A DNA stretch of 64,000 bases, from NCBI RefSeq assembly GCF_001641695.1, contig NZ_LSEF01000090.1, forward strand, positions 216,725 through 280,724. The letters are read 5' to 3'. Each line of letters begins with the position of its first letter. The stretch's first letter is position 1. Below the pieces are notes generated by a model. The model was not told the DNA's origin. It did not search any database and saw nothing but the letters and a program-made list of their open reading frames with translations. Below, in pieces: positions 2,746 through 7,947 of the stretch. This DNA comes from Bradyrhizobium neotropicale (lineage in GTDB: Bacteria; Pseudomonadota; Alphaproteobacteria; Rhizobiales; Xanthobacteraceae). The position numbers and the translations under genes are program-made.

Positions 2746-3123
2746 CTATTCGCTTCTCGACACTTCCCGCTTGTAGGAGGCGTAGTTCGGCTGATCCACG
2801 GCGAGCTTGTCCATCGTGGTCTGCCAGAGATGCTCGGCCAAGCCCGGCGTCGCGAGATCCACCTCGCCCTTGGCGATGCGTTCTGCCAGCGCGCGGTTGA
2901 GCTCGGTGACCGAGCCATTCATGCCAAGCAGCGTGCGCAGGCGCTCGACCTCCTTCGCGTCACTCCCCTCCTCCAGCGCCAGCTGCCGGGTGACGAGATC
3001 GAGGATGTTGATGGCGACGCGCAGCTTGAACGCCTGGTGGCCGGAGATCAGCGGCGCGATGTCGTTGCGGAGGAAATCGGCGACGGCCTTGGTCAGCTCG
3101 ATCGGTGTCGGTTCGTCCTGCAT
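2746..3123 (-). CDS. DUF6285 protein, LvaB-like partner of the adjacent kinase
   Basis: Small soluble, mostly helical protein of 125 residues with no signal peptide or metal motif. I recognise it as DUF6285. Its start lies three bases after the stop of the APH-type kinase, and a strong ribosome site (GGGAGGTGA) overlaps that stop, so the two are translationally coupled. In the levulinate operon of Pseudomonas putida the kinase LvaA needs the small protein LvaB for phosphorylation of 4-hydroxyacyl-CoA. By analogy this is probably the LvaB-type partner. That role is inferred from size, family and gene order, not from visible catalytic residues. Confidence 0.7.
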   Translation of the reverse strand: MQDEPTPIELTKAVADFLRNDIAPLISGHQAFKLRVAINILDLVTRQLALEEGSDAKEVERLRTLLGMNGSVTELNRALAERIAKGEVDLATPGLAEHLWQTTMDKLAVDQPNYASYKREVSRSE

Positions 3124-3126
3124 GCA

Positions 3127-4113
3127 TCACCTCCCGCGCGGCGCGAGCAGCCGCAACAGATCGATCTCGGTCTCGGAGGCGCGGCGGCCGATCATGGCGC
3201 GCTCCATCGAATGGTCCGGGCCTTCGCGAAAGCGCTGCATCATGCCGCCGCACATGATGCCCCAGCGCAACGTGCCCATCACTTCCCAGAATTTGACGCG
3301 CGCCGGATCGACCTTGCGGCCCGCGGCCTCATAACCTGCGAACAGCTCCTCGCGCGAGCCGAAGCCGCCGACCGGTTTGTCGATCTCGCCAAAGCGCCAC
3401 GAGTTGACGCAGAGCCAGCCGAGATCCTCCATGGGATCGCCGAAATGGGCGAGCTCCCAGTCGAGCACGGCGCGCACGCCGTCAGAGCCGATGATGAGAT
3501 TGCCGTTGCGAAAATCGCCGTGTACCAGCGTCACCTCGACTGAGGGGCCAGGATCGTTGTCGCGCAGCCAGCGCAGCGCCAGCTCGAACACGGGCTTGGG
3601 CCAGTTCAGGCTGCGATAGTCGCGCTCGAACTCGTCGATCTCCTTCGCCGCGGTCATGAGGCGCAGCTCGGGCAACTTCTCCTGCGGCAGCCTGTGCAGG
3701 CCGGCGAGCACACCGCCGATCTGCCGCGCGAGCACAGGGCGGGCCGCGGCGAACTCGTCGTCGCGGAGAATCTTGCGCGCGATGGTCTCGCCCTCGACCC
3801 GCTGCATGATGAAGCCGGTACCGAGATCGTCCTCCGGCGTGAGTACATGCAGCACCCGCGGCGACGGCACACCGGCTTCATAGGCGAGCTGCATCAACCT
3901 CGCCTCGGCGGCAAGCCCCGCCGCGCGCGTCGGCGCGGCGCCATAGCCTTTTGGCGCGCGACGCAGGATCGCGCCGATCGGCCCGTCGGGATGCTCGATG
4001 TCGAAGCGCCAGGTTTCCTGGCTGGCGCCGCCGGACAGCTTTGCGGCGCAGCTCGCGCCGGTCGCGCCCGGGCACCAGCGCACCACGCTGCGCGAAAGCT
4101 CCGTCTCGATCAT
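3127..4113 (-). CDS. APH-family phosphotransferase, LvaA/ACAD10-11 kinase-like
   Basis: Protein of 328 residues with an aminoglycoside-phosphotransferase (protein-kinase-like) fold. The Brenner-type catalytic loop HGDFRNGNL and the metal-binding DWELAHFGDP are intact. The N-terminal half has the ATP-binding beta strands (GGASQETWRF). The chosen ATG overlaps the upstream enoyl-CoA hydratase stop as ATGA. A longer frame runs 29 codons further into that gene, but its extra N-terminus is arginine-rich and unlike the family. In acyl-CoA contexts these kinases (LvaA in bacteria, the kinase domain of ACAD10/11) phosphorylate the 4-hydroxyl of 4-hydroxyacyl-CoA. Its neighbours, an enoyl-CoA hydratase, an SDR, an ACAD and DUF6285, fit this better than antibiotic resistance. 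Confidence 0.8.
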   Translation of the reverse strand: MIETELSRSVVRWCPGATGASCAAKLSGGASQETWRFDIEHPDGPIGAILRRAPKGYGAAPTRAAGLAAEARLMQLAYEAGVPSPRVLHVLTPEDDLGTGFIMQRVEGETIARKILRDDEFAAARPVLARQIGGVLAGLHRLPQEKLPELRLMTAAKEIDEFERDYRSLNWPKPVFELALRWLRDNDPGPSVEVTLVHGDFRNGNLIIGSDGVRAVLDWELAHFGDPMEDLGWLCVNSWRFGEIDKPVGGFGSREELFAGYEAAGRKVDPARVKFWEVMGTLRWGIMCGGMMQRFREGPDHSMERAMIGRRASETEIDLLRLLAPRGR

Positions 4114-6390: not shown

Positions 6391-6513
6391 GTCATTCCCC
6401 GCGAAAGCGGGGAAGCCATTAGGCCGTGGCTTCTTCGTGAGTCACCGACGCCTCTGGAATACTGGATCGCCCGCCCCAGTGCGCAATTGCGCACAAGGCG
6501 GGCGATAACGACG
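6391..6513. repeat. Interspersed compound palindrome, family F
   Basis: It starts with GTCATTCCCCGCGAAAGCGG and ends with a second stem, GGATCGCCCGCC...GGCGGGCGATAACGACGG. It occupies the first half of the 302-bp gap 6371-6672. The rest of the gap holds no gene and presumably the promoter of the acyl-CoA dehydrogenase, for which I could not pick convincing boxes. Confidence 0.65.
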
Positions 6514-6672
6514 GAGAGCGTGAAGCCTAGCAGCACCGTTCAAACAACATTTCAAACGCTCTCGCGATATTCCATCGCATGGCATGGCGCGCGTGAAAAA
6601 TGCGCGCTCGCGCTTTGGCCGCGCTGCGACTATTCTCCGGCCCAACGCGATGTCAACGAAACGGGAGGAACA

Positions 6673-7947
6673 ATGAAACACACCTACATTCCCCGCACCA
6701 CCAACTACACCCTCAATCCCGGCGACGAGCTCAACGACCTCAGGATGTCGGACCAGGTCCGGCCGCTCTATGATCACGTCAAGAAGTTCATCCGCGACAC
6801 CGTCGAGCCGATGTCGATCGAGTTCGCCAAGGCCGGCGAGAACAAGGAAGACCGCTGGAGCTTTACGCCGAAGCAGCTCGAGGTGCTGGAGAAGGCCAAG
6901 GACAAGGCCAAGAAGGAAGGCCTCTGGAACTTCTTCCTGCCCGATGACGAGACCGGCCAGGGCCTGAAGAATCTCGACTACGCCTATATCGCGGCCGAGC
7001 TCGGCAAGAGCCCGCTGGCCTCGGAAAGCATGAACTGCTCGGCGCCCGACACCGGCAACATGGAAGTGCTGGAGCGCGTCGGAACCAAGGAGCAGAAGGA
7101 GAAGTGGCTGAAGCCGTTGCTCAACGGCGAGATCCGCTCGGCCTATGTCATGACCGAGCCGAACGTCGCCTCCTCCGACGCCAAGAACATCTCGACGACG
7201 GCCAAGCTCGTCGGCGACGAATGGGTCATCAACGGCGAAAAGTATTACATCTCCGGTCTCGGCGATCCCCGCTGCAAGATCCTCATCGTGATGGTGAAGA
7301 CCAATCCGGATGCGGCGCCGAGCAAGCAGCAGTCGCAGATCCTGGTGCCGCGCGACACGCCCGGCGTCGAGGTGCTGGGGCCCATGTACGTGTTCGGACA
7401 GGATCATGCGCCGCGCGGCCACATGCATATGCGCTTCAACAATGTGCGGGTGCCGAAGGAGAACATGCTGCTCGGCGAAGGCCGCGGCTTCGAGATCTCG
7501 CAGCTCCGCCTCGGACCCGGCCGCATCCATCACTGCATGCGCACGATCGGCAAGGCCGAGAAGGCGCTCGACCTGATGGTGCAGCGTGGCCTCACCCGCG
7601 AAGCCTTCGGCAAGAAGATCGCCCATCTCGGCGGCAACATGCAGATCATCGCGCAGGCGCGCTGCGAGATCGAGGCGATGCGACTGATGGTGCTGAAGGC
7701 GGCGAAGGCCATGGACGTGCTCGGCAACAAGGAGGCTCGCGTCTGGGTCTCGATGGTCAAGGCGATGGTGCCGGAGCGCGCCTGCAAGATCATCGACCAG
7801 GCGATCCAGATGCACGGCGCGACCGGCATCTCGCACTGGACGCCGCTCGCCGAGATGTATCAGGACGTGCGCCACCTCCGCTTTGCCGACGGTCCGGACG
7901 AGGTGCACTGGATGGTGGTGGGACGCCACGAGCTGAGCATGGCGTAA
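6673..7947 (+). CDS. Acyl-CoA dehydrogenase, ACAD10/11- or LvaC-like
   Basis: FAD-dependent dehydrogenase of 424 residues. The FAD loop is YVMTEPNVASSDA and the C-terminal domain has IQMHGATGIS. It ends with FADGPDEVHW: the Glu found in most ACADs is Asp here, which I associate with the ACAD10/11 type. Start ATG follows GGGAGGA; an open frame continuing upstream to 6226 is non-coding. With the kinase, DUF6285 and SDR genes nearby it completes the set LvaA, B, C, D of levulinate-type breakdown, where LvaC turns 4-phosphoacyl-CoA into enoyl-CoA. Function as such is inferred; the family call is firm. Confidence 0.88.
   Translation: MKHTYIPRTTNYTLNPGDELNDLRMSDQVRPLYDHVKKFIRDTVEPMSIEFAKAGENKEDRWSFTPKQLEVLEKAKDKAKKEGLWNFFLPDDETGQGLKNLDYAYIAAELGKSPLASESMNCSAPDTGNMEVLERVGTKEQKEKWLKPLLNGEIRSAYVMTEPNVASSDAKNISTTAKLVGDEWVINGEKYYISGLGDPRCKILIVMVKTNPDAAPSKQQSQILVPRDTPGVEVLGPMYVFGQDHAPRGHMHMRFNNVRVPKENMLLGEGRGFEISQLRLGPGRIHHCMRTIGKAEKALDLMVQRGLTREAFGKKIAHLGGNMQIIAQARCEIEAMRLMVLKAAKAMDVLGNKEARVWVSMVKAMVPERACKIIDQAIQMHGATGISHWTPLAEMYQDVRHLRFADGPDEVHWMVVGRHELSMA

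Follow-up and report, generated by a model that had tools for sequence, protein, structure and literature searches.

Gene content and organization of the locus

The locus analyzed here lies in a 64,000-nucleotide stretch of the Bradyrhizobium neotropicale genome (8.67 Mb), hereafter called the window, and encodes an APH-fold kinase, a small DUF6285 protein, and two acyl-CoA dehydrogenases (ACADs), designated ACAD1 and ACAD2. The kinase gene (positions 3127 to 4113, minus strand; PF01636 APH, E value of 1.3e-37) forms a single coupled minus-strand unit with the genes of ECHB, a PaaG-like enoyl-CoA hydratase/isomerase (4110 to 4898), and of the DUF6285 protein (2746 to 3123). The stop codon of ECHB and the start codon of the kinase gene share the 4-nt overlap motif ATGA, and the kinase stop codon is followed, after a 3-nt gap, by the ATG of the DUF6285 gene, which has GGGAGG immediately 5' of it. 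Divergent from this unit, on its upstream side, lie the genes of a short-chain dehydrogenase/reductase (SDR), a VOC protein, and ACAD2 (6673 to 7947, plus strand). Past the DUF6285 gene follow ECHA, an enoyl-CoA hydratase/isomerase family protein (1715 to 2494, plus strand), and then ACAD1 (227 to 1501, minus strand; PF00441, E value of 6.9e-41), whose motif reads QCFVHQNRIRQAAS ... TEGSEEIQ.

Conservation was assessed at 80 named Bradyrhizobium-like loci, retrieved with the kinase as the query, and at 22 sister-genus loci, which represent other genera of the window's family (22 of the 25 genomes with the kinase, all but G066, G088, and G108). DUF6285 accompanied the kinase at 80/80 and 22/22 of these loci. 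At nine loci, kinase and DUF6285 were found in one open frame as natural fusions; when three of the fused proteins were compared with Pfam, two scored above both cut-offs and one fell slightly short for DUF6285.

A sequence-only reading of the window had outlined positions 2746 to 7947 as a module comprising a translationally coupled kinase-DUF6285 pair, two hydratases, an SDR, and an ACAD with the motif ADGPDEVH. The coupling was borne out by both junctions and by the constant company of DUF6285. All of the named genes are present and the ACAD motif reads as described; however, the second hydratase, ECHA, lies outside that interval. The same reading had the module lacking a CoA ligase, which did not hold: a CoA ligase gene on the same contig (L214:14524-16326) ends at approximately window position 101.

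Relationship of the kinase and the DUF6285 protein to LvaA and LvaB

For comparison with the lva operon (LvaABCDE of Pseudomonas putida KT2440), we used its RefSeq-annotated copy on the Pseudomonas aeruginosa plasmid p12939-PER (L008), in which RefSeq names lvaB only and the other lva names were assigned by gene order. The window's DUF6285 protein matched PF19802 with 112 bits (gathering cut-off, 28.1; E value of 1.8e-32), and LvaB matched the same profile (85 bits; E value of 4.8e-24), in agreement with the earlier assignment of positions 2746 to 3123 to the LvaB family. Plain BLAST gave no match between these proteins, so the family link rests on the profile. The kinase shared 34% identity with LvaA over 306 residues (E value of 9e-47) and 28 to 31% with two kinases of its own genome that adjoin dehydrogenases of the ACAD10/11 type. 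Its best matches in the PDB were distant (3dxp, E value of 4e-12; ACAD11, E value of 2e-11). An assignment as an antibiotic kinase was rejected because the protein scored far below every NCBIfam antibiotic-kinase cut-off, the best being APH(3') with 33.8 bits against a required 205.

Given that LvaB belongs to the DUF6285 family and that the kinase is closer to LvaA than to the ACAD10/11-type kinases of the genome, we infer by homology that the kinase-DUF6285 pair is an LvaAB-type hydroxyacyl-CoA kinase. A physical complex of the two proteins is predicted from the gene coupling and the natural fusions. The DUF6285 protein itself is predicted to be all-helical (pLDDT of 79; pTM of 0.46). Its model gave no PDB match at an E value of 0.001 or less (best E value, 1.6), and a search of the open-licence literature found no paper on DUF6285.

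The locus resembles the lva operon in its coupled APH kinase and DUF6285 genes, with ACAD, SDR, and CoA ligase nearby. It differs in that no LvaC ortholog stands beside the kinase (identity with LvaC, 27% for ACAD1 and 30% for ACAD2) and in its extra hydratases. The SDR is 29% identical to LvaD, no better than general SDR similarity, and may or may not be of the LvaD type.

Two observations on related records were made in passing. A record titled Frankia sp. RB7 (L061) contains a Bradyrhizobium-type kinase with 91% identity and is probably mislabelled or contaminated. In a Stutzerimonas lva-like operon (L007:6875-10983), the DUF6285 gene separates the kinase gene from that of a histidine phosphatase; the report on Pseudomonas citronellolis LA18 describes a histidine phosphatase and no lvaB (PMC6692424), and an lvaB gene may have been overlooked there.

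Two main types of dehydrogenase adjoin kinase-DUF6285 pairs

In a study on mouse ACAD11, residues R626, R631, H634, R637, and D753 are tied to the binding of phosphoacyl-CoA and to catalysis (PMC12440821), and the equivalent positions were read in the ACADs. ACAD2, with the residue set RRHRD and the motif ADGPDEVH, keeps all five and matched mouse ACAD11 with an E value of 7e-117, which upholds its earlier description as an ACAD10/11/LvaC-type enzyme. The residue set of ACAD1 is FRQSE; R626, H634, R637, and the aspartate base are absent, and the motif TEGSEEIQ provides a glutamate as the catalytic base. R631 is kept in ACAD1 and is common to ACADs generally. ACAD1 thus differs from LvaC in lacking the phosphate-pocket residues. 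The locus shares with the animal kinase-ACAD fusions ACAD10 and ACAD11 the combination of a kinase and an ACAD, and ACAD2 is clearly of their ACAD type, but the window's kinase is only distantly related to theirs.

ACAD1 has the same domains and the TEGxEEIQ motif of ordinary acyl-CoA dehydrogenases, such as the caffeyl-CoA reductase CarC (6fah, E value of 3e-45). Unlike them, it belongs to a clade of its own with private invariant residues: Arg277, Gln278, Arg396, His393, and His394 were invariant among 52 aligned ACAD1 sequences, and these residues and an FFDHRR stretch were not shared by nine other ACADs aligned. An AlphaFold model of ACAD1 had a pLDDT of 39.5, too poor to inspect the active site.

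The ACADs that adjoin kinase-DUF6285 pairs were mostly RRHRD (LvaC-like) or FRQSE (ACAD1-like) enzymes; a few were generic (e.g., in Variovorax), and several pairs had no nearby ACAD. Phylogenetic analysis of 45 ACADs placed all 18 ACAD1-like sequences in one clade (support, 100) and the 17 RRHRD sequences in another (99). A kinase tree of 59 rows grouped 20 LvaA-side rows with a support of 88, or 99.8 without the long Thermus branch; 38 rows, with the window's kinase among them, fell on the other side, and the remaining row, L162 (G284), fell between both. This tree excludes the unrelated APH kinases L156_12959 and L159_11606, the distant kinases L002_12451 and L006_4568, and three haloarchaeal rows, and both kinase trees omit 15 loci, comprising near copies, L008 (entered as LvaA), L129 (G112), and L145 (G059). 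Judged from these trees, the window's kinase represents a second lineage of LvaAB-type kinases with a dehydrogenase family of its own. The label "levulinate-type" given to the module by the sequence-only reading is not supported for a kinase outside the LvaA side, in a genome with two other pairs of a kinase and an LvaC/ACAD11-type ACAD elsewhere.

Cupriavidus, Variovorax, and one G494 locus formed a kinase sub-branch with neither ACAD type adjoining. The pairs at these loci (L002, L013, and L164) sit with other ACADs, a possible third partner set.

ACAD1 is the dehydrogenase conserved at kinase loci

ACAD1 was present at 79/80 Bradyrhizobium-like and 18/22 sister-genus kinase loci, whereas ACAD2 adjoined the kinase at 74/80 and 0/22, respectively. 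Of the 22 sister-genus loci, 19 have 7.5 kb or more of sequence on the side in question, with ACAD2 in none of the 19. Among 24 sister-genus genomes with the kinase, 14 carried an unlinked ACAD2 ortholog and 10 had none at 83% identity or more. Relatives of ACAD2 in Sulfitobacter and Haematobacter (71 to 73% identity) belong to a ligase-HCDH-ECH-SDR-SDR cluster that has no DUF6285 kinase; in Haematobacter, a different APH kinase is encoded approximately 4 kb away. The kinase-DUF6285 pair of Sulfitobacter pontiacus, on another plasmid than its ACAD2 relative, is directly followed by an ACAD1 relative (70% identity), and an RRHRD-type ACAD with 55% identity to LvaC is also found 7 kb upstream. 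ACAD2 was rejected as the conserved partner of the kinase on the 0/22 count, which does not support the ADGPDEVH enzyme as the conserved dehydrogenase of the module; ACAD2 is probably a genus-level addition to the locus. By its distribution, the conserved dehydrogenase partner of the kinase is ACAD1, which lies outside the interval 2746 to 7947.

Among 397 proteobacterial genomes, DUF6285 was detected in 41 and ACAD1 (at least 65% identity) in 31, and 30 had both. In the 31st ACAD1 genome (G416), the frame next to ACAD1 spans 491 residues and joins a kinase to a DUF6285 tail that scores slightly under the cut-off. The kinases of 22 of the 31 ACAD1 genomes were represented in the kinase tree, 21 on the window's side and that of G284 between the sides; those of the other nine, all of the window's genus, were outside the trees, and G450, G480, G499, and G533 were searched for DUF6285 only. 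All 11 DUF6285 genomes without ACAD1 had LvaA-side kinases, and an RRHRD ACAD was adjacent in nine. In the window's family, ACAD1 occurred in 29/32 genomes with the kinase versus 0/117 others, with G001 (a partial 39% match; LvaA-side kinase) counted among the 117. Fisher tests treat related genomes as independent, so their significance is overstated; at the family level, the split is 8 versus 7 families, one of which (f19, G284) has the in-between kinase.

ACAD1 and the kinase/DUF6285 genes were retained yet apart in ten genomes (G222, G349, G424, G438, G402, G466, G382, G290, G464, and G284), which argues that their link is more than operon inheritance; in G402, the two genes are on two contigs, each close to a contig end, and might be no more than about 8 kb apart.

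Relatives of ACAD1 that adjoin APH kinases were found in proteobacteria, an actinobacterium, and haloarchaea. On a Nocardia plasmid, ACAD1 (67%) directly follows an APH kinase (39%), with no space for a DUF6285 gene between them. Three haloarchaeal plasmids, of five matching ones, were read; all three encode ACAD1 at 56 to 58% identity, adjoined by an APH kinase and a small open reading frame (ORF).

ACAD10/11-type enzymes elsewhere in the genomes

ACAD2 matches with E values of 1e-100 or better were obtained, by similarity only, in all 28 genomes of the window's family that were searched. In the window's genome, both ACAD10/11 motifs are present at three other loci, and a fourth shows just the helix motif. 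Two further kinase-ACAD pairs in it, on C6 (L215) and C121 (L185), contain RRHRD-type ACADs with 54 to 55% identity to LvaC (55% for C6) and 54% to ACAD2; the adjoining kinases are, by look, of the 3dxp/ACAD11 kind. Part of an ACAD10/11-type kinase was found nearby at 8 of 12 ACAD10/11-type loci for which 1.5-kb flanks were read; seven of these matched the C121 kinase and one the C6 kinase, with L225 reaching only 34%.

An argument that some ACAD1 genomes are without any LvaC-type ACAD was abandoned. The LvaC query, run against 33 genomes, found none at an E value of 1e-50 in G234, G344, and G495, but the ACAD2 query found one below 1e-100 in each. This single enzyme has part of a different, C121-like kinase within 1.5 kb in all three genomes, a pattern which favors, and does not prove, ACAD1 as the partner of the DUF6285-associated kinase. 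In two of the three matches, the aligned region contains a single stop, and G344 gave an additional, weaker match (E value of 2e-70).

Neighboring genes and other features of the window

The matches and distribution of the remaining genes around the kinase were as follows. ECHA (PF00378, E value of 1.2e-62) was found at 79/80 Bradyrhizobium-like and 17/22 sister-genus loci. ECHB (NF004635, 488 bits against a cut-off of 351), with 4fzw, a 1,2-epoxyphenylacetyl-CoA isomerase, as its best PDB match, was found at 80/80 and 16/22 loci, and the SDR (5079 to 5858, plus strand; PF13561, E value of 1.7e-59) at 76/80 and 17/22. The VOC protein (5993 to 6370, plus strand; PF00903) occurred with ACAD2 at Bradyrhizobium-like loci only (75/80 and 0/22), and a GST-type disulfide-bond oxidoreductase (8124 to 9002, minus strand; NF008731, 535 bits) followed the same pattern (71/80 and 0/22). 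Farther to the right are encoded a type I Baeyer-Villiger monooxygenase (9278 to 10942, minus strand; phenylacetone monooxygenase, E value of 6e-201; 26/80 and 11/22 loci), a nitronate monooxygenase-family protein (11195 to 12328, plus strand; PF03060; 69/80 and 8/22), and a thiolase-like protein type 1 (12444 to 13970, plus strand; PF18313; 62/80 and 14/22). To the left of the window, the same contig carries the CoA ligase, an SDR most similar, among solved structures, to the mitochondrial 2,4-dienoyl-CoA reductase (DECR; E value of 5e-62), a hydratase, and a second CoA ligase, each found near the kinase at 68 to 71 of the 80 Bradyrhizobium-like and 10 to 12 of the 22 sister-genus loci.

Elsewhere in the window, positions 20556 to 24324 encode proteins which Pfam places as four-carbon acid sugar kinase-like, xylose-isomerase-like TIM barrel, 3-hydroxyisobutyrate dehydrogenase-like, and class II aldolase, a cluster that we take to resemble a threonate/erythronate pathway; ORFs that look ABC-transporter-like adjoin it (24488 to 26890). 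The motif GTCATTGCGA recurs at positions 138, 2651, 12339, 36617, and 58321, with an inverted partner nearby at several sites, in the manner of a REP-like intergenic repeat.

Proposed pathway and alternative explanations

We propose, with a probability of roughly 0.5, that the locus encodes an LvaAB-type kinase acting on hydroxyacyl-CoA, with ACAD1 as the conserved partner that oxidizes the phosphoacyl-CoA. The hydroxyacyl-CoA would be made by the neighboring CoA ligase or ligases and converted with ATP to phosphoacyl-CoA by the kinase-DUF6285 pair, the hydroxyl being most likely at C-4. This step is modeled on the work on LvaA/LvaB and ACAD10/11 (PMC6692424, PMC11342911, PMC12440821). ACAD1 would then most likely oxidize the phosphoacyl-CoA across C-2 and C-3 via its glutamate base, after which phosphate would leave. 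Because ACAD1 is without the phosphate pocket of LvaC and ACAD11, a different arrangement would be needed, possibly involving its invariant Arg277 and Gln278. Any dienoyl product could, in the window's family, enter beta-oxidation by way of the DECR-like SDR and the PaaG-like isomerase. Which carbon carries the hydroxyl, the route through a dienoyl-CoA, and the natural substrate are speculative parts of the proposal; that ACAD1 would release a dienoyl product for the DECR-like SDR is hypothesized from the gene content of the window's family only. The Baeyer-Villiger monooxygenase, a neighbor that is not constant, hints at lactone-derived hydroxy acids.

A more tentative extension is that the locus represents a second phosphate-dependent route, in which ACAD1 would expel phosphate without the LvaC/ACAD11 pocket, either oxidatively, yielding 2,4-dienoyl-CoA, or from another hydroxyl position (C-5). 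Oxidation by ACAD1 would set this route apart from the redox-neutral reaction of LvaC and ACAD10/11. For ACAD10, a reaction via a transient 2,4-dienoyl-CoA, with reduction back to 2-enoyl-CoA, has been proposed; the same work reports that the enzyme requires no electron acceptor and that no phosphorylated product was observed in cells given 5- or 6-hydroxyhexanoate (PMC11342911).

Several findings weigh against a pairing of ACAD1 with the kinase or against the chemistry proposed for it. Three genomes of the window's family (G112, G025, and G059) have the kinase without ACAD1, and the kinase of the ACAD1 genome G284 stands between both sides of the tree. The kinase next to ACAD1 in haloarchaea comes from another branch, and its small ORF has no DUF6285 match; on the Rhodobacteraceae plasmid L211, no kinase was found in the 19 kb read around ACAD1 (57%), which neighbors a nitroreductase. 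The residues linked to phosphoacyl-CoA in ACAD11, namely R626, H634, R637, and the aspartate base, are those missing from ACAD1. The DECR-like SDR was found near the kinase or ACAD1 only in the window's family, at 12/22 sister-genus loci and at none of the loci read outside the family. Finally, all nine ACAD1 genomes checked outside the window's family hold an ACAD10/11-type ACAD, with motifs read, so elimination could take place in trans.

The model of the sequence-only reading, in which the 4-phosphoacyl-CoA of Bradyrhizobium is processed in an LvaC-like manner by ACAD2 and ACAD1 is an ordinary enzyme for the shortened chain, draws on the complete set of ACAD11 residues in ACAD2, its strong match to ACAD11, and its place beside the kinase at most Bradyrhizobium-like loci. 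However, ACAD2 is missing from every sister-genus locus, being unlinked or without an ortholog in those genomes, its Sulfitobacter and Haematobacter relatives cluster without a DUF6285 kinase, and the model leaves the co-occurrence of ACAD1 and kinase at separate loci unexplained; we consider it rather unlikely. Less probable still is that the kinase product is handled by another LvaC/ACAD10-11-type enzyme encoded elsewhere, with ACAD1 serving a different step of the same pathway. Such ACADs are indeed widespread, in the family genomes by similarity, in the nine other ACAD1 genomes by motif, and at the additional loci of the window's genome, but a separate kinase is encoded close to many of them (the 8 of 12 loci above), and these may already have a partner.

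APH kinases act on diverse substrates, and the kinase might phosphorylate a compound that is not an acyl-CoA, such as a free terpenoid or another alcohol, with the ACAD and hydratase genes belonging to unrelated beta-oxidation. The frequent Baeyer-Villiger monooxygenase neighbor would suit this explanation, but the homology to LvaA and LvaB and the steady presence of CoA enzymes alongside make it very unlikely.

Implications

The mechanistic question raised by the locus is which ACAD turns over phosphorylated acyl-CoA, and whether ACAD1 needs an electron acceptor, in contrast to ACAD10, which is reported to need none. If the proposed pathway holds, a function would be suggested for DUF6285 as well as for a conserved family of ACADs. 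The LvaAB-type kinases would then constitute a family, working with two or more kinds of dehydrogenase, rather than one levulinate system.

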